64,000 nt of DNA from Planctomycetota bacterium (GTDB taxonomy: Bacteria; Planctomycetota; Phycisphaerae; Sedimentisphaerales; Anaerobacaceae): positions 1 through 64,000 of the forward strand of contig JACNGQ010000198.1 of the NCBI GenBank assembly GCA_014384025.1, in the 5' to 3' direction. A model generated the notes under the pieces. That model made no database searches. It had not been told where the DNA came from and saw only the letters and a list, made by a program, of their open reading frames with translations. A program made the translations under genes and the position numbers. The stretch's first letter is position 1. The number at the start of each line of letters is the position of its first letter. Of the stretch, positions 3,988 through 63,806 are shown one piece after another.

Positions 3988-4815
3988 ATGGGTAAACGAA
4001 CCGGCTTTACATTAATAGAACTTCTGGTTGTCATAGCCATTATCGCGCTATTGCTATCGATTTTGATGCCTGCTCTTCAGCGGGTCCGGAGCCAGGCGCG
4101 GGGTGTGGCATGCAAATCCAATCTACATCAGTGGGGCCTGGTATTTGCTTTGTACACACAGGACAACGACGGCTATTTCTACAGCGGCCATTTACGTGGC
4201 TCATCGTCGGGCATGGGCGGGGGCGAATGGTGGCGAGAATGTATGTGGCCGTTGTCAAGGGAAAAGAAGATGTGGCTGTGCCCGACAGCGACAAAGTACC
4301 GTTCTATCTCTCCGGACGGCTCGGGCCGGCGTCCGGCGGCGACTCCTTTCGATGCATGGCGGGCCGATGAATCTACGGGCGGGGATGAGGGCAGCTACGC
4401 TCCAAACGGCTGGATGTGCAATATCCCAGCAGGATTAGCAAACCTTTGGGGGCGAGGGCCTGCCGAGTACTACTGGCGAACCCATCAGGTTCGGGGAACC
4501 TTCAACATTCCTGTTTTTACCGAGAGCTGGTGGGTGGATGGATGGCCTCGACATACTGATGAACCCTTTGAATTGGGTGATCGCACGCCCCTGCTGGGGC
4601 CCAATGTGCAAGAAATGCAACGACTGTGCGTCAACCGGCACGGCGGGGCGCAGCACTGTCTCTTTGCCGACTGGTCCGCGCGCAAGGTTTCCATCAAGCA
4701 GTTATGGACGCTGAAGTGGCACCGTCAGTTCGAGACGAATGGGCCCTGGACAATGGCCGGAGGTGTACAGCCAAACGACTGGCCGATGTGGTTGAGAAAA
4801 TACAGGGAATACTGA
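3988..4815 (+). CDS. prepilin-like (type II secretion pseudopilin-type) protein
   Basis: 275 aa. The N-terminus [20 protein letters not shown] carries the prepilin peptidase site (cleavage after G, Phe methylation expected) and a hydrophobic helix. The following [19 protein letters not shown] is typical of the planctomycete version. The C-terminal half has [19 protein letters not shown], matching the H...DG-like pseudopilin signature, and ends with [34 protein letters not shown], shared almost word for word with three proteins at 61-63.5 kb. Probably exported and surface or periplasmic. GC is higher than in neighbours. The gene is single here, followed by a non-coding stretch. Confidence 0.85.
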
Positions 4816-5082
4816 TAACGGATTAATGTTTTAGCGTTTCGCCTCCGGGGGGATTACCGCGTTTTTTCCTCTATAAACGGCAGAGGGATTCTTTATTTGA
4901 TAAGCTTATACCACCATACCATGGTGTAGATATTATCCTTTTAGTAAATCAGAAGCAGGGATTTCGAAGCCTAAATTCAGGATTATCCTACTTTCTTTTT
5001 TTTGTGTAAAAGTGTTTATATACATGTTCTTTGAGGAAGGCTGAATACATATAAGTTTACAGTCTTATACAACTTTGATTAA

Positions 5083-5126
5083 GCTCCTGCTCTCAACTAA
5101 AGTAACTATATAGCAGGGGCTTTTTT
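5083..5126 (+). terminator. intrinsic terminator
   Basis: GCTCCTGCT...AGCAGGGGC (9 bp, one G-T pair) is followed at once by TTTTTT. It lies about 270 bases after the pseudopilin stop. The sequence from the T run onward (TTTTTTATTTGAA...) is repeated at 8142 onward. Confidence 0.75.
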
Positions 5127-5150
5127 ATTTGAATGAAAAAATCGTATCTT

Positions 5151-5194
5151 GAGCGGGCTGAGTTACCACACATATTCCTCCTCTCAGCCTGCTC
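5151..5194. repeat. terminator-associated stem-loop, copy 1
   Basis: GAGCGGGCTGAG pairs with CTCAGCCTGCTC over 12 bp with one G-T pair. The loop is TTACCACACATATTCCTCCT. The left arm and loop start are identical in copy 2 (8176-8219), where the right arm has changed but still pairs. Confidence 0.75.
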
Positions 5195-5199
5195 TTTCC

Positions 5200-5235
5200 T
5201 TTTTATTTCTCTTTTGTTACGAGGTCTTTGCAACA
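5200..5235 (-). pseudogene. fragment of the sigma-associated two-TM gene
   Basis: TTATTTCTCTTTTGTTACGAGGTCTTTGCAACAT is nearly identical to 8427-8460, which encodes MLQRPHNKREIN in the 8374-8739 gene. Flanking similarity fades quickly. I read this as a remnant of a former second copy of that locus. Confidence 0.6.
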
Positions 5236-5334
5236 TCGATCCATTCAAAAAAGTGTGGCACTAACAAAGTAATTCCCAATGTATTTATCGTCAGATTTTA
5301 TGGAAGATCGAACAAATTGGTCAGGCCGAAGCGT

Positions 5335-6708
5335 TTAAGGGATCGTCATTCTATTTGCAAGAGAAACGGCAAGATTAATGATGACACAACCGCCAAACTG
5401 GCCTTCACTGTCGTTACCTACAATACGTATCCCGAGGACCTTAAAATCAATCTCAATGTTACTAAGATCATATCCCAGGACCATTAAACCCGGAGCGTTT
5501 CCACCGCGATAGTGTGTGACAGAGATTTTTTGCAATCGCTGGTCGCCGTCGGTGAGGTAAACGCTGGGCGGGATGCCCGATTTCAGTATAAAGAGACCGA
5601 TTTCAGGGCCGGGCCGATCGAGAAGCGGTAATTGGAAGCGATATTCTATCCAGTGGTCCTGTTCGAGAATCAGCATTGCGTTTTGTGGCTTATCTCTGGG
5701 ATCAGAAATGAACTGAATGCCTTGCTCGCCCGGCAAGTTTACAAAACACCGCCAATCATCCTGGTCCGGATTGTGGCTTGCGGCGATTTCTCTAAGGAAG
5801 AAGTTACCCATGAATATCATGTTATTGTCGAGAGTGGGCTGCCCCGGGCCATCCCAGGTTACAGCGACTGGCCCGGTACGGCCCGGTCGATTCCCGGAGG
5901 AGGTGATGATCGCAGTTGTGCCGGTCAGGGCCAGAATGATTCCTATGGCGATAAGGAACGCCTTGGACAGCACAGTAGCCAATACCGCCCCAGTTACCGC
6001 GACCTTGGCTGATGCGGCCTTGACGGCGGGCATAGCAGAGGCGGACTTGGTCGATGTGGACGTCATCGCCGCAAACACCGTGAGCGCACCGAGGAAATGG
6101 GAGCGTTTTAGGCCTTTTCGGGCGAGTTGGCTTCTCAGGGCCGTCCTGGCGCGATAGAATAACATTTTTGTCCGCATTTGAGAACCGCCCAGAACTGTGG
6201 CAATCTGGGCGTAAGACTGATCCTCCAGGCAACGTAATGTCAGTACAGTTCTGTATTCCAGACTCAATGCGTCCATGGCAGCCAGGATGAACTCGACCAT
6301 TTCCTTGTGCCATAATGTTGCAGCCGGTCCGCTGTAGGTCTTTCCTGACATCGTTTCCAGAATCTCTGAATTGACCATGGTGCGCTGATCCATACGCCTG
6401 GCACCTTGTGCACGGAAGTGATGCTGGACCTTTCCGAGTGCTGTTCTGTAAAGCCATGACCAAAAGCCGTTCTCATTAGTCAGATGAAGACGCGGCAGGG
6501 CCCTGACCAATTCCAGGAGTGTTTCCTGGGTCAGATCTTCTGATAGATCATGATCCAGGGTCATGCGATTAATAAAGGTATATACCTTCGGCTTGGCCTG
6601 CTGAGCGAGCAAAGAACGACTTTCCTTACACCCTCTTTGGGCCTTACGTAAGCAATCTAAGTTAATCTGATCCACACTCGAACGCATACGACTTTCAGGG
6701 GCTCTCAC
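5335..6708 (-). CDS. ECF-type sigma factor fused to a transmembrane and extracytoplasmic domain
   Basis: 457 aa. Residues ~35-100 form sigma region 2 (DLSEDLTQETLLELVRALPR, FWSWLYRTALGKV); ~135-190 form region 4 with the recognition helix (LRCLEDQSYAQIATVLGG..RTKMLFYRARTALR). After a small-residue linker, a hydrophobic helix (~238-270) is followed by a ~185-residue tail rich in beta strands (WIEYRFQLPLL..IGLFILKSGIPPSVYL), perhaps a jelly-roll. The layout suggests a membrane-held sigma factor whose outer domain senses a signal. Start GTG at 6708 (AGAG upstream) or ATG at 6687. It is divergent from the metallo-beta-lactamase-fold gene. Neither the release mechanism nor the ligand can be seen. 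Confidence 0.8.
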   Translation of the reverse strand: MRAPESRMRSSVDQINLDCLRKAQRGCKESRSLLAQQAKPKVYTFINRMTLDHDLSEDLTQETLLELVRALPRLHLTNENGFWSWLYRTALGKVQHHFRAQGARRMDQRTMVNSEILETMSGKTYSGPAATLWHKEMVEFILAAMDALSLEYRTVLTLRCLEDQSYAQIATVLGGSQMRTKMLFYRARTALRSQLARKGLKRSHFLGALTVFAAMTSTSTKSASAMPAVKAASAKVAVTGAVLATVLSKAFLIAIGIILALTGTTAIITSSGNRPGRTGPVAVTWDGPGQPTLDNNMIFMGNFFLREIAASHNPDQDDWRCFVNLPGEQGIQFISDPRDKPQNAMLILEQDHWIEYRFQLPLLDRPGPEIGLFILKSGIPPSVYLTDGDQRLQKISVTHYRGGNAPGLMVLGYDLSNIEIDFKVLGIRIVGNDSEGQFGGCVIINLAVSLANRMTIP

Positions 6709-6923
6709 AAATCTCTGTTGGCTTCGGCCTTCCCTGGCCTTCGGGCCGAGACGAAGGTTTTGAAAGAATATCTTTTATAAATCCATTGTAAATCATGGAT
6801 TAAGACTTTTCTATTCGCTTTTCAAAAAAAAAATAAAAAAAACAAACCCTCCGGCCAGAAATCGGGATGTATGTATTTAGTGAATAAGAAAACACAATAG
6901 AAACTTTAACAAAAGGAGACGAC

Positions 6924-8018
6924 ATGAAAAATCTATGTTATTCATTGTTGCTTTGTGGGATTGCCTTATTATGGGTACCTGCTGCCTACGGTCAAGACAT
7001 CACCATTCGACGTGTAACAGATCGCGTTATTACATTGAGTATGTCAAATCTCAGTATGCATACCAATGTAACTGTTATCGAGACACAGAAAGGGCTGGTG
7101 TGTATCGAGACGGAATTCGTACCGTCGGTCATGAAAACGATCAAAGAAGCCGCTGAAAAAGAGTTGGGGCGCAACGATTGGGCCTATGTGATCAATACTC
7201 ATAGCCATCTTCATCACGCGAAAGGAAATGCCGCATTCCCCGAGACCCCGATCATCGGACCCAACAAGACGATGATGGATTGGTTCAAAAGCACACTGTC
7301 AAGCAAGGAAGGACGCAGGGCATACTGCGATTACTCCGGGGTAACCTATGGTATCAAGGCATTGCGACAGAACCTGGCTCAGGCAAGGTTGACTGCGGTA
7401 CAGAAAGAAGAACTGCGCCGGAGACTTCGCTTCTGCTATGCGATTCAAAAGGAAATCATGGACGGCTTTGAGGTTCGAAATCCCACCATCGCCTATCGCG
7501 AAGGCCAGGAACTGGATTTGGGTGACACGCATCTGCAATTGTTCTACTGGGGTGACGGTATAAACCACAGTTCCATTTTTGTATATGTTCTGGAAGACAA
7601 AATGTTGGTGGGGATGGGCATGGGCCAGCAGGGATGGATAGAGAGCCCCGCTGAGGAAGTGAATTTAGAGGGGTTTCGCCATGCCATTTCCATGTTTGAG
7701 AAACTCAGTGACAAGAAATTCCCCATCGACTTTATGATCGAAGTTCATAGTCCTGAGATTCATAGGTCGAGACAGCGCTTTCAATATTCACACACATATT
7801 ATCAAAAACTGCTGGACAACCTGACCCAGGCACAGGAAGATGGGCTCTCCCTGCAACAAGCCAAGGCCAAGTTCCCTTATAGCAAGGAACCTGCCGCTAT
7901 GCGAAGATATTTCTATCGACCTGAGAATGTCAGCGAAAGACATCTAAAAACCATAGATAGAATCTGGGAATTATTGCAGAATAGAGGATCGTCTCACTCA
8001 GTAGCACACAATCATTGA
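6924..8018 (+). CDS. exported metallo-beta-lactamase-fold protein with altered metal motif
   Basis: 364 aa with signal peptide (~1-24, ending AAYGQ). The fold is indicated by VINTHSHLHHAKGN (H93-S-H95-L-H97-H98), then GDTHLQLFYWGDGINHSSIFVYVLEDKMLVGMG and a late EVHSP. In the canonical HxHxDH motif the Asp is a zinc ligand; here it is His97, so site 2 chemistry may differ. The C-terminal ~90 residues are helical. ATG is preceded by AAAGGAG. It lies divergent from the membrane-tethered sigma factor and upstream of the structured 3' region at 8028-8154. Substrate unknown; a periplasmic hydrolase is likely. Confidence 0.8.
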   Translation: MKNLCYSLLLCGIALLWVPAAYGQDITIRRVTDRVITLSMSNLSMHTNVTVIETQKGLVCIETEFVPSVMKTIKEAAEKELGRNDWAYVINTHSHLHHAKGNAAFPETPIIGPNKTMMDWFKSTLSSKEGRRAYCDYSGVTYGIKALRQNLAQARLTAVQKEELRRRLRFCYAIQKEIMDGFEVRNPTIAYREGQELDLGDTHLQLFYWGDGINHSSIFVYVLEDKMLVGMGMGQQGWIESPAEEVNLEGFRHAISMFEKLSDKKFPIDFMIEVHSPEIHRSRQRFQYSHTYYQKLLDNLTQAQEDGLSLQQAKAKFPYSKEPAAMRRYFYRPENVSERHLKTIDRIWELLQNRGSSHSVAHNH

Positions 8019-8027
8019 TTGGGTCCG

Positions 8028-8148
8028 GCCCCTGCCGTGCTCATCTGGTTCTTGAATAACAGGAGACGAGATCATGACAACGAATGACAAAAGAATTATT
8101 TTGGCAATAGTCTCTCTGTTTCTGACGAGTGCGGCAGGGGGCTTTTTT
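8028..8148 (+). terminator. long-range terminator hairpin enclosing a mini-ORF
   Basis: GCCCCTGCCGTGC (from 8028) pairs with GTGCGGCAGGGGGC (to 8142), followed by TTTTTT. The stem is strong, but the loop is about 85 bases and contains the ribosome binding site and body of the 26-codon ORF. Translation of that ORF would run through the 3' arm. Confidence 0.55.
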
Positions 8149-8154
8149 ATTTGA
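8074..8154 (+). CDS. 26-aa hydrophobic mini-protein or leader peptide
   Basis: Not in the supplied track. ATG at 8074 is preceded by AGGAGACGAGATC (AGGAG, good spacing) and encodes MTTNDKRIILAIVSLFLTSAAGGFFI: a short polar N-terminus and one hydrophobic helix. The stop codon lies just after the T run of the terminator, so coding and terminator overlap. It could be a one-helix membrane peptide, a leader whose translation disrupts the hairpin, or a remnant of a signal peptide. Family unknown. Confidence 0.4.
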   Translation: MTTNDKRIILAIVSLFLTSAAGGFFI

Positions 8155-8373
8155 ATTAAATAGAAATCGCATTTAGAGCGGGCTGAGTTACCACACCTCT
8201 GTTCCTCCACTCCGCCCGCCCTTTCCTTTCATTTTGCGTTGAAATCTCCTGGCCTTACATCAGATACACCTCGGTCTTAGTTTGGCCATTGAAGAACGAT
8301 GAAACGCCTCATCAGAGCAAACCTCTGAAATAATGAAACTCTATATCTAACGAACTCAATAAGCAGGGCATTG
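8155..8373. other. 3' spacer of the sigma-associated locus
   Basis: After the stem-loop, 8240-8345 (CCTTACATCAGATACACCTCGGTCTTAGTTTGGCC...) is homologous to 665-775 (CCTACCTCAGATACCCTTCGGCTTGAGTTTGGTC...). No coding signal was seen on either strand. Confidence 0.6.
8176..8219. repeat. terminator-associated stem-loop, copy 2
   Basis: GAGCGGGCTGAGTTACCACAC is identical to 5151-5171. GCGGGCTGAG pairs with CTCCGCCCGC at 9 of 10 positions. The upstream TTTTTTATTTGAA is also shared with copy 1. Confidence 0.7.
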
Positions 8374-8739
8374 TTATTTATCTTTGATTGTCTCAATCAA
8401 TTCAGCGATACGAAGCTGTAGTTTGTTTATTTCTCGTTTGTTATGAGGTCTTTGCAGCATTACCCAAGCGAAAACGCTTATGAAGCCAAGCCAATGGCTG
8501 CAACAGACTACTATGGCAGCATGCATGATCTGGTATCTGGTCTGGCCGGTAATGAAAAACTCTTTAACACAACAAACGATGAGGATTGAAAGAATTATAT
8601 ATTGAGCATAAACACATTTTATAACCCAACGCATTTTTTTGCTGTAAGCATCCTTAAACCATGAACGCATTGTGTCTTCTTTTGATTCATCGTACTGCGG
8701 CGGATTGTCCATTATCTTTTTTATCTGTTCTTTATCCAT
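8374..8739 (-). CDS. two-TM protein downstream of ECF sigma factor, putative anti-sigma partner
   Basis: 121 aa. An acidic N-terminal helix (MDKEQIKKIMDNPPQYDESKEDTMRSWFKDAYSKK) is followed by two hydrophobic helices (~38-62, ~70-95) and a charged helical tail (RPHNKREINKLQLRIAELIE). This resembles the small planctomycete membrane proteins found after ECF sigma genes (DUF6768-like by recollection). The start has GAGGTG upstream and lies 15 bases after the sigma stop, so the two are surely co-transcribed. A role in holding the sigma factor at the membrane is inferred from context. A fragment of this gene survives at 5200-5235. Confidence 0.7.
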   Translation of the reverse strand: MDKEQIKKIMDNPPQYDESKEDTMRSWFKDAYSKKMRWVIKCVYAQYIILSILIVCCVKEFFITGQTRYQIMHAAIVVCCSHWLGFISVFAWVMLQRPHNKREINKLQLRIAELIETIKDK

Positions 8740-8754
8740 TTTTCACCTCGAAAA

Positions 8755-9288
8755 TTAATTATCAAAATATTTTTTCCATAGCTGTTTCAATTCTTCTCTT
8801 GCAGTAAACAGGCGAGATTTTACGGTGCCTGTTGGAATATTCAGGGCAATACTTATTTCAGGAATACTTAGCTGCTCAAAATAATACAGACTCAGGATCA
8901 CTCTACTATCACTTTTTAATCTTTGAACCAGTTCTTTTACCTGTGAATCATTATCTTTTCGATTAGAATCAACTTCAATTGACTCAAGGTTTATATGCTG
9001 ATTTTTCTTTTTGTTTTTCAACCAGTCAATCGTTCTGTTTGTGGCGATTCTATAAGCCCAGGCCTTAAAATTTGCAGGGTCATGTAATTTTGTTAATCCT
9101 TTTATTATTTCAAGCCAACATTGCTGAGTGATATCCCATGAAGCATGGACGTCAGTAGTCAATCTAAAGACATACTGCCATAACTTTTTCTGCCATAGAG
9201 AAACCAGCTTATCCAACGCGGCCTCATTGCCATCCTGAGCAGCCATAACCAAAAAATGGTTTTGAATGTTTGAAAGATTATCTTTCAT
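8755..9288 (-). CDS. RNA polymerase ECF sigma factor
   Basis: 177 aa, usual ECF length. Region 2 is visible at ~20-90 (WQYVFRLTTDVHASWDITQQCWLEIIKGL, FKAWAYRIATNRTIDWL) and region 4 at ~115-170 (ILSLYYFEQLSIPEISIALNIPTGTVKSRLFTAREEL). The start has AAGG nearby. A perfect 9-bp inverted repeat lies ~60 bases upstream of the start. The neighbouring two-TM protein is the likely regulator. Signal and regulon unknown. Confidence 0.9.
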   Translation of the reverse strand: MKDNLSNIQNHFLVMAAQDGNEAALDKLVSLWQKKLWQYVFRLTTDVHASWDITQQCWLEIIKGLTKLHDPANFKAWAYRIATNRTIDWLKNKKKNQHINLESIEVDSNRKDNDSQVKELVQRLKSDSRVILSLYYFEQLSIPEISIALNIPTGTVKSRLFTAREELKQLWKKYFDN

Positions 9289-9372: not shown

Positions 9373-9405
9373 GTAACAAGAGGGATGATTGTAATTCTAT
9401 TCATT

Positions 9406-9426
9406 ATTGGTGCGATTCATCGCACC
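9406..9426. repeat. GTGCGATTCATCGCAC palindromic element, copy 2
   Basis: GGTGCGA-TTCA-TCGCACC forms a 7-bp stem with a 4-base loop. ATTGGTGCGATTCATCGCA is shared with 333-352. Confidence 0.7.
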
Positions 9427-9430
9427 CGAA

Positions 9431-9496
9431 CTATGTGGATCTGACTATTTTTATGACATCGTCGAATTCGTTTAAGATAGCATGGTCTTTTTGGGC
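9431..9496 (-). pseudogene. relic of a second PutP-type symporter C-terminus
   Basis: The minus strand reads AQKDHAILNEFDDVIKIVRST then stop. The intact symporter at 10170 ends QKDQTILNEFDYVLTKIKNT. DNA identity is also high (GTCGAATTCGTTTAAGAT is common to both). No upstream coding sequence remains, so this is a truncated duplicate left downstream of the response regulator. Confidence 0.75.
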
Positions 9497-10169: not shown

Positions 10170-11642
10170 CTATGTGTTTTTGATTTTTGTCAGGACGTAG
10201 TCGAATTCGTTTAAGATGGTTTGGTCTTTTTGACTCAGAAAGAGGTTGATCAGGGAAATTGTAAGGCAATTTGCGATGAATCCGGGGACGATTTCGTACA
10301 TTTTGTCGCTTAAGCCGACCTGTTTCCATAGAACAAGTACCACTGTTCCGGTTACCATTCCAGCTAAAGCCGATTGCCATGTTGTCTTTTTGCTGTACAG
10401 TGCGAAAAGGACCAAGGGACCAAAGGCAGCACCGAAGCCGCCCCATGCGTAGGAGACTATTTCCAGAATCGTGTTGTTGCGGTCCAGTGCCATAACTAAC
10501 GCAATAATCGAAATGATAACTACACAGCCTCGTCCAACTAAAATAATTTCCCTTTCGGAGGCTTCCTTCCTTATCGCCTTAGAGTAAAAGTCTTCCGATA
10601 ACGCCGACGACGAGACAAGTAACTGCGAATCTATGGTTGACATAATGGCCGAGAAAATCGCCGCCAAGAGTATCCCGCCAAACCATGGATTGAAGAGGTC
10701 GCTTATCATAAAAATAAAGACTTTTTCCTGGTCTCCGCCGGTGAGGTCATCGTACATTGCAATACCAATCAAGCCGATGATTACTGCTCCGCATAACGAT
10801 AGAAAAACCCAGATGATGGCGATGGCCATAGATTTTCCGAGTTTATCAACCGATTTGATGGACATGAATCGTACCAATATATGCGGCTGGCCGAAGTAAC
10901 CCAAGCCCCAGGCCATGCTGGATATAATCATACAGATGCAAACAGCCAATGTACCGCCTTGCGGCATCAGGCTTGTCGATATGTCCTTTAACTCCATAGC
11001 TTCTCTTATTGCTGTAACTCCACCTGCGGTATTATAAGTCAACGCCGGAACTATAATTATCGCAAAGACCATTAACGCGCCCTGCAGAAGGTCCGTCCAG
11101 CATACCGCTAAAAAACCGCCCATGAAGGTGTAAGCTATTATGACAAGGCCGCCGATGATTACGGCGAGGTGGTACTGGACATTAAAGGTCGATTCGAACA
11201 GCTTTCCTGTTGCTACGAGTCCGGAAGAGGCGTATATGGCGAAAAAGATAAGTATTATTATAGCTGAAACGATTCTAAGCAGGCCGGTCGGGTCTCTGAA
11301 ACGCGCTTCGAAAAAGCAGGGCAGTGTTATCGCATTGGTTATTTCCGTATATACCCGGAGCCGGGCTGAGACCAGCTTCCAGTTCAGGACTGTCCCTATG
11401 AAAAGCCCTGTAGCAATCCAGGTCTTTCCCATTCCGCCAAGGTAAATTGCCCCGGGCAGGCCCATCAGGAGCCAGCCGCTCATGTCGGAGGCCTGTGCCG
11501 ATAGGGCGGTGACCCATGAGCCCATGCCGCGTCCGCCCAGAAGATAGTCTTCTATATTAGACGACTTTCGATAAAAGAAAAAACCGATACCAAGTAAGGC
11601 TATGAAATAAGCTATAAATGTAATTAATGTTGCTGCCGGCAT
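10170..11642 (-). CDS. sodium:solute symporter (PutP-like)
   Basis: 490 aa with about 13 hydrophobic helices. SSS-family marks are the early EDYLLGGRGMGSWVTALSAQASDMSGWLLMGLPG, the GGFLAVCWTDLLQG segment and AAIFSAIMSTIDSQLLVSSSALSEDF, which resembles the PutP Na+ site region. Overall similarity in memory is to sodium/proline symporters, but the context next to a beta-helix protein and an isomerase-fold protein makes a sugar or sugar-acid substrate just as possible. It is 73 bases after the beta-helix gene. No clear Shine-Dalgarno. The final residues are duplicated in the relic at 9431-9496. Confidence 0.85.
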   Translation of the reverse strand: MPAATLITFIAYFIALLGIGFFFYRKSSNIEDYLLGGRGMGSWVTALSAQASDMSGWLLMGLPGAIYLGGMGKTWIATGLFIGTVLNWKLVSARLRVYTEITNAITLPCFFEARFRDPTGLLRIVSAIIILIFFAIYASSGLVATGKLFESTFNVQYHLAVIIGGLVIIAYTFMGGFLAVCWTDLLQGALMVFAIIIVPALTYNTAGGVTAIREAMELKDISTSLMPQGGTLAVCICMIISSMAWGLGYFGQPHILVRFMSIKSVDKLGKSMAIAIIWVFLSLCGAVIIGLIGIAMYDDLTGGDQEKVFIFMISDLFNPWFGGILLAAIFSAIMSTIDSQLLVSSSALSEDFYSKAIRKEASEREIILVGRGCVVIISIIALVMALDRNNTILEIVSYAWGGFGAAFGPLVLFALYSKKTTWQSALAGMVTGTVVLVLWKQVGLSDKMYEIVPGFIANCLTISLINLFLSQKDQTILNEFDYVLTKIKNT

Positions 11643-11715
11643 TTTTTGTGAAAAAAATAGAGACTTTTTTATAGACTATTTCGGCAGGGTGGAACTTGCC
11701 CCATTATTAATTTCA

Positions 11716-63538: not shown

Positions 63539-63806
63539 CACTGTTATCCTACTCTTTTTCAAGAGAATATTGGCATTGTCGGCTTATCTTAAATAATTAT
63601 ATCATAATCCGTTACGTTAATACAAGAGGAGGCATAAACATATACCGATGAACATTTTGCTAATTATCAGCGTATGCTTAAAAAATTGAATTTTTGTCAA
63701 AAACTTGATAATATATCAAAAAATGATGCTCGGTGACGTAACTGGGTAAGGAATATACAAGAGTATAGGAAAACCGCGTAAATTTTTGTCTTTTGGAGGA
63801 TTTAAT

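Follow-up and report, generated by a model that had tools for sequence, protein, structure and literature searches.

A predicted composite small-RNA locus in a planctomycete and its probable kinship with a family of anti-Shine-Dalgarno hairpin RNAs

Here, we analyze an intergenic region of a 64,000-nucleotide stretch of a Planctomycetota genome (contig JACNGQ010000198.1; hereafter the window), and propose that it is a composite small-RNA locus. It comprises a predicted small-RNA gene, sRNA1, followed by a hairpin, H2, that would belong, in worn form and without a promoter, to a lineage-wide family of anti-Shine-Dalgarno (anti-SD) hairpin RNAs that probably block translation (Table 1). We regard this reading as probable. 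As read from their sequences, members of the H2 family have GC-rich stems of varying sequence, pyrimidine-rich loops with the anti-SD motif CCUCC, and U-rich tails. The argument draws on computed conservation, structure, promoter spacing and loop content, and on the presence of two copies in the window versus one in a sister species.

Table 1. Coordinates of predicted features in the window
Feature	Position	Strand	Details
sRNA1 upstream block	4935..4989	+	Two dyads, GGGATTTCGAAGCC and AGGATTATCCT (AGGATTATCCT at 4979-4989); aligned with G001:C160, C286, C323, G005:C88
sRNA1 promoter-like stretch	4991..5022	+	-10-like TATATA at 5017-5022; relatives TTGTTT..TATTAT; kept in five loci
sRNA1, predicted ~100-nt RNA	5025..5126	+	Covariance model R1, 147.9 bits; fold z -2.4
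sRNA1 first hairpin, AAGGCUG..CAGUCUU	5037..5066	+	One-sided G-U/A-U variation keeps most pairs
sRNA1 intrinsic terminator	5081..5126	+	AAGCUCCUGCU/AGCAGGGGCUU plus U-run
H2 hairpin	5151..5194	+	Loop UUACCACACAUAUUCCUCC with anti-SD CCUCC, then UUUCCUUUUUAUUU; model R2, 25.8 bits
DUF6768 remnant	5202..5236	-	35 nt, 12 codons MLQRPRNKREIK; 91% to 8426-8460 (C-terminal coding part of 8374-8739)
Second copy	8138..8229	+	Terminator tail and H2 (8176-8221), without sRNA1 body; 84% to copy 1, 89% to G001; R2, 25.8 bits
DR, dispersed intergenic repeat	8230..8307	+	Follows H2 in copy 2, C286, G001 and partly G005:C88
DUF6768 gene	8374-8739	-	Pfam E 1.4e-11
ECF sigma gene	8755-9288	-	Pfam; beside DUF6768 gene

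A predicted small-RNA gene upstream of the hairpin

A preliminary description of this DNA had singled out a terminator plus stem-loop starting at 5083. Both elements are real, and the first is part of something larger that had been missed: conservation begins at ~4935, well 5' of 5083, and by its sequence 5083-5126 is not a lone terminator and closes a conserved RNA-like unit of ~100 nt with a promoter-like upstream block (4935-5127). We read this unit, sRNA1, as a small non-coding RNA gene predicted from sequence, whose promoter was called by consensus inspection only and whose start site is likewise predicted. The segment 5081-5126 has the GC-rich stem and following U-run of an intrinsic terminator (fold z -4.0 against dinucleotide shuffles, -15.8 kcal/mol), and its stem is of the same type as C-rich-loop terminators found elsewhere; CCUCC is absent from its loop. 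In the sRNA1 alignment, a single-stranded stretch, CUUAUACAACUUUGUUAAAG, lies between the first hairpin and this terminator.

BLAST against its own genome finds the 5083-5126 half again on contigs C286 and C323 and weakly on C106, and among genomes of the same genus sRNA1 occurs in G001 (84%) and G005. With the R1 model, loci at E<=1 number eight in this genome and five in G005; of the eight, three are the alignment members themselves and five are additional, three of these additional ones at E<4e-4. Outside the genus its matches are weak. Covariation neither proves nor disproves the sRNA1 fold, because pairs in the five sequences vary on one side only, with two-sided compensatory change absent among them. 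The upstream block, with its dyads a probable regulator site, also precedes another RNA body in G005:C152 and G001:C375, a short RNA with the terminator loop AUAUCUCGCUUUUUCCUCUCCCUCCGC, and would therefore drive different bodies. In G005:C88 (L045 ~7010-7060), a 10-nt unit, CTCACACCTA, is repeated several times in tandem within the sRNA1 terminator loop.

A lineage-wide family of hairpins with CCUCC loops

Against dinucleotide shuffles, H2 at 5151-5194 folds with z -6.2 (-22.4 kcal/mol) and its second copy with z -4.2. The window's H2 loop contains UUCCUCC, and the U-run that follows, UUUCCUUUUU, is weaker than that of the sRNA1 terminator. An exact stem pattern recovers H2 relatives in five of six genomes of the genus, at eleven loci, with three such loci in the 6.7 Mb of this genome and none for a reversed control. 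At eight of the eleven, the hairpin is preceded at 38-41 nt by a CTTATTGCCAATCGTATAAT-like sequence, which itself has GAAC upstream. The resulting promoter shape, TGAACC-N16-CGTA (in the form GAACC-N16-CGTATAAT), is ECF-like and, we presume, comparable to the sigW promoter; it is from this motif shape that we infer ECF control of the family promoters. Elsewhere in the window, TGAAC-N-CGTAT has one match, at 63649, without a C-rich hairpin.

The family extends well past the genus. R2, a covariance model of promoter plus hairpin, matches 34/89 genomes and 22/45 genera of the GTDB family at E<=0.1, with GAAC..CGTA kept and the spacer differing. A promoter-free hairpin pattern, GGGCTGRGG..CCTCAGCCC, reaches 57/89 genomes and 28/45 genera, and its reversed form none. 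From this second search we kept 37 hairpins on 30 loci, picked irrespective of loop or promoter: CCTCC is present in 35 of their loops, which average 83% pyrimidine, a T-rich tail follows 34, and GAAC-N15..18-CGTA lies <=70 nt upstream of 14, versus 0.2 expected. In a larger set of 106 hairpins, which also takes in loci picked for their CCTCC and fortuitous matches from other phyla, the promoter is found at 28, in 18 cases at 43 or 44 nt from the hairpin. Tandem groups of two or three hairpins recur across genera (in this genome, C30:21537 and C30:21868), and named records with the hairpin come mostly from Sedimentisphaerales or other Phycisphaerae. Rfam gives no match at gathering score in the window or in nine loci with intact members, and nothing credible at E<=10 on 4850-5400.

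C-rich-loop hairpins cluster, two and three together, at L332 9538-9926 (G000:C30) and L337 9301-10001 (G034:C1), in both cases near a terminase-like ATPase gene, identified by sequence reading with no Pfam match; at L332, an HTH plus IrrE/M78 gene lies in between.

The promoter and leader of intact relatives are absent at both window copies of H2, at C286 and at G001:C160, and the window copies are probably peripheral, degenerate members of the family. Production of H2 from the window, where its promoter is gone, would need read-through from sRNA1.

Selection on stem and loop

Among the 34 aligned R2 matches, two-sided change occurs at 9/10 stem pairs (52 cells, with 0/500 shuffles as high) in an alignment, A7, that had been fitted to the model; slid partners fail the same test. 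A search that used no model found a 25-nt loop, with <=2 changes allowed, at 65 distinct places; at 62, the loop is closed by a stem of >=7 bp without interruption. This loop sits on ~38 differing arm pairs, some differing in length only, and its arms are of two unrelated kinds, ACAGGGCUGAGG/CCUCAGCCCUGU and AAGCCCCUGCGG/CCGCAGGGGCUU. It is present in 16/43 sampled genomes of this GTDB family and in 0/354 others of the class. Further copies and compensatory changes in relatives had been set beforehand as the check on the preliminary description, and the finding of both favors a selected structure. Interchangeable stems around a fixed loop offer an unusually clear natural experiment on selection in a terminator-type sRNA.

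These data bear directly on the alternative that the locus consists of ordinary tandem rho-independent terminators that insulate convergent genes and were copied once with a flanking gene, their C-rich loop being incidental. Such an arrangement would suit the U-rich stretch after both hairpins, the opposite-strand genes beyond them, and the promoterless state of the window's H2 copies, yet it needs no fixed loop, whereas the 25-nt loop is kept across its many arm pairs. The CCTCC in 35/37 loops, the ECF-like promoter at a fixed distance, and the promoter block retained by sRNA1 also speak against it, and we consider it unlikely.

A proposed mode of action

The model we infer for the composite locus and its family covers transcription, ECF control, SD pairing, read-through and the order of events. 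We propose that sRNA1 (~5025-5126) would be transcribed from its own promoter and stop at its intrinsic terminator. An intact member of the H2 family would run from an ECF-type promoter through a short leader into a terminator hairpin, yielding an RNA of ~60 nt whose long pyrimidine-rich loop would expose CCUCC, pair with the Shine-Dalgarno GGAGG of mRNAs and block translation. The window's H2 would be made by read-through from sRNA1 only, and the copy at 8138-8229 would be the leftover of a partial H2-DR-DUF6768 duplication. By analogy with NmsR, Sis and CcsR-type RNAs, SD blocking of many mRNAs is the likeliest function.

This organism uses SD words: GGAG and AGGA precede 29% and 35%, respectively, of 317 long ORFs in the sampled part of the genome; CCTCC precedes 0%. 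A search for the 16S 3' end gave no 16S match in the assembly. Over all terminators in 0.74 Mb, anti-SD loops number 6 versus 1.6 expected, an enrichment that we set aside because the choice of loci biases it.

The loop might instead act as a decoy that titrates an RNA-binding protein and takes no part in SD pairing. The loops, uniformly pyrimidine-rich and with more to them than a bare CCUCC, would suit such a decoy. Against it, CCUCC varies least of all the elements, SD sites are used in this genome, and no candidate protein was identified; we find this idea distinctly improbable.

A more elaborate form of the anti-SD reading, which we put forward tentatively, is a lineage-wide ECF-sigma regulon of anti-SD hairpin RNAs in Sedimentisphaerales, in which a pseudoknot between a purine-rich leader and the C-rich loop would gate access to the loop. 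In the genus, the leader-loop pairings GAGGGUG:CACCCUC, AGGACGG:CCGUCCU and GAAAGG:CCUUUC are possible, and leader-loop pairing shows a modest excess over swapped partners, being equalled by 58/5000 swaps overall and by 4/120 within the genus subset.

A partial and decayed duplication in the window

The preliminary description had reported that the terminator tail and stem-loop recur at 8142-8219, and that 5200-5235 matches coding sequence at 8422-8460. Both matches are borne out: against the whole genome, 5116-5202 aligns with 8138-8229 at 84% identity over 92 columns (E 2.4e-20), and 5202-5236 with 8426-8460 at 91% over 35 nt (E 1.7e-6). The label 'sigma-associated' for the gene fragment was also apt, its source being the DUF6768 gene that adjoins an ECF sigma gene by Pfam. 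That the right arm differs between copies and still pairs holds for copy 1, where 12/12 stem pairs form, one of them G-U, and only in part for copy 2, whose stem has two mismatches. Copy 2 lacks the left arm of the first terminator, with 8138 marking its junction with a truncated gene start (8074-8154), and its H2 is 89% identical to that of G001, versus 82% for copy 1.

Between the two partial copies, ~3 kb (5203-8137) is taken up by other genes, namely an ECF-like gene, one with a metallo-beta-lactamase fold and the truncated gene start; copy 2 runs on into DR and the DUF6768-ECF genes. In the sister species, G001:C160 has sRNA1, H2 and DR as a single uninterrupted copy, directly after which come sequence resembling window 9394-9495 and the transporter gene of window ~10170-11665. 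By sequence, this arrangement fits a duplication of the H2-DR-DUF6768 stretch whose first copy then decayed to H2 plus 35 nt of DUF6768, in line with the earlier suggestion of a decayed locus copy that left a selected RNA structure. A second, paralogous DUF6768-ECF pair ~1.9 kb downstream of the sRNA1 copy on C323 (L010 11146-12044, G000) supports an old association between sRNA1 and such gene pairs. Searching this genome with the DR consensus gives 18 matches at E<=1, 13 of which reach E<1e-3, with another copy in the window at 681-759; DR often lies truncated and several times directly behind an H2 hairpin, and it was set aside as an RNA gene on account of its dispersed, often truncated copies.

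Two further candidates near copy 2 were rejected. Long-range pairing of 8029-8045 with 8124-8140 as a terminator arm would enclose a 78-nt loop that is the truncated gene start, and was deemed incidental; the ORF at 8074-8154 (26 codons), considered as a leader peptide, is instead the beginning of a secreted-protein gene, cut short here, whose homologue lies at C286:5635-5725 (minus strand). Prepilin-type N-terminal coding sequences recur across the window at 3988, 24600, 61600, 62600 and 63400.

Since only one copy exists in the sister species, what the window contains is a duplication that was partial and has decayed, rather than a mobile cassette. A mobile or REP/MITE-like repeat cassette inserting near terminators, which had also been suggested, would account for the dispersal of related hairpins and DR and for like tails in unrelated places, but is very improbable given the few H2 copies (three exact-pattern loci in 6.7 Mb, where REP/BIME elements have many), promoters of their own whose distance hardly varies, recurrent tandem pairs and triplets across genera, the resemblance of related hairpins to conserved, often promoter-bearing small-RNA genes, shared boundaries that vary by copy, and the failure of a non-exhaustive repeat search and copy alignments to reveal shared ends, terminal repeats, target duplication or a transposase.

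Relation to known anti-SD RNAs

The interest of these results lies mainly in the family reached via the window, and less in the window's own copy. Planctomycetota have ECF genes in very large numbers, and little is known of their post-transcriptional control; here, the promoter motif and the loop motif together offer a way to trace the ECF sigma factor and the mRNAs concerned. Our searches of the open-access literature returned no description of anti-SD small RNAs from this phylum.

Cuckoo RNA, or CcsR, is known for C-rich anti-SD loops, to which the CCUCC in the hairpin loops described here (35/37) is similar. These alphaproteobacterial sRNAs are clustered and multi-copy, with an RpoHI/RpoHII promoter and a link to DUF1127 at the CIN1 locus (PMC10253847). 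The H2 family shares with them the clusters of sRNAs and an alternative-sigma-type promoter. Unlike them, it belongs to the Sedimentisphaerales lineage, has its own terminator for each unit and often its own promoter, and carries an ECF-like GAAC-N15..18-CGTA in place of the RpoH-type promoter; scans of proteins encoded near the window locus and the C30 cluster found no DUF1127. The Neisseria sibling sRNAs NmsRA/NmsRB have three stem-loops and a UC-rich single-stranded loop complementary to the SD of their targets (PMC5362039). The pyrimidine-rich, SD-complementary loop is alike in the two cases, whereas here it tops a single terminator hairpin behind an ECF-like promoter. Caulobacter SisA-D are sibling sRNAs with a common motif bearing an anti-SD signature (PMC12559287); the likeness to the RNAs described here lies in the shared anti-SD motif of siblings, and the lineage is another. 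Anti-SD sRNAs as a general kind are known; what looks new is this family, together with its type of promoter and the lineage in which it occurs.
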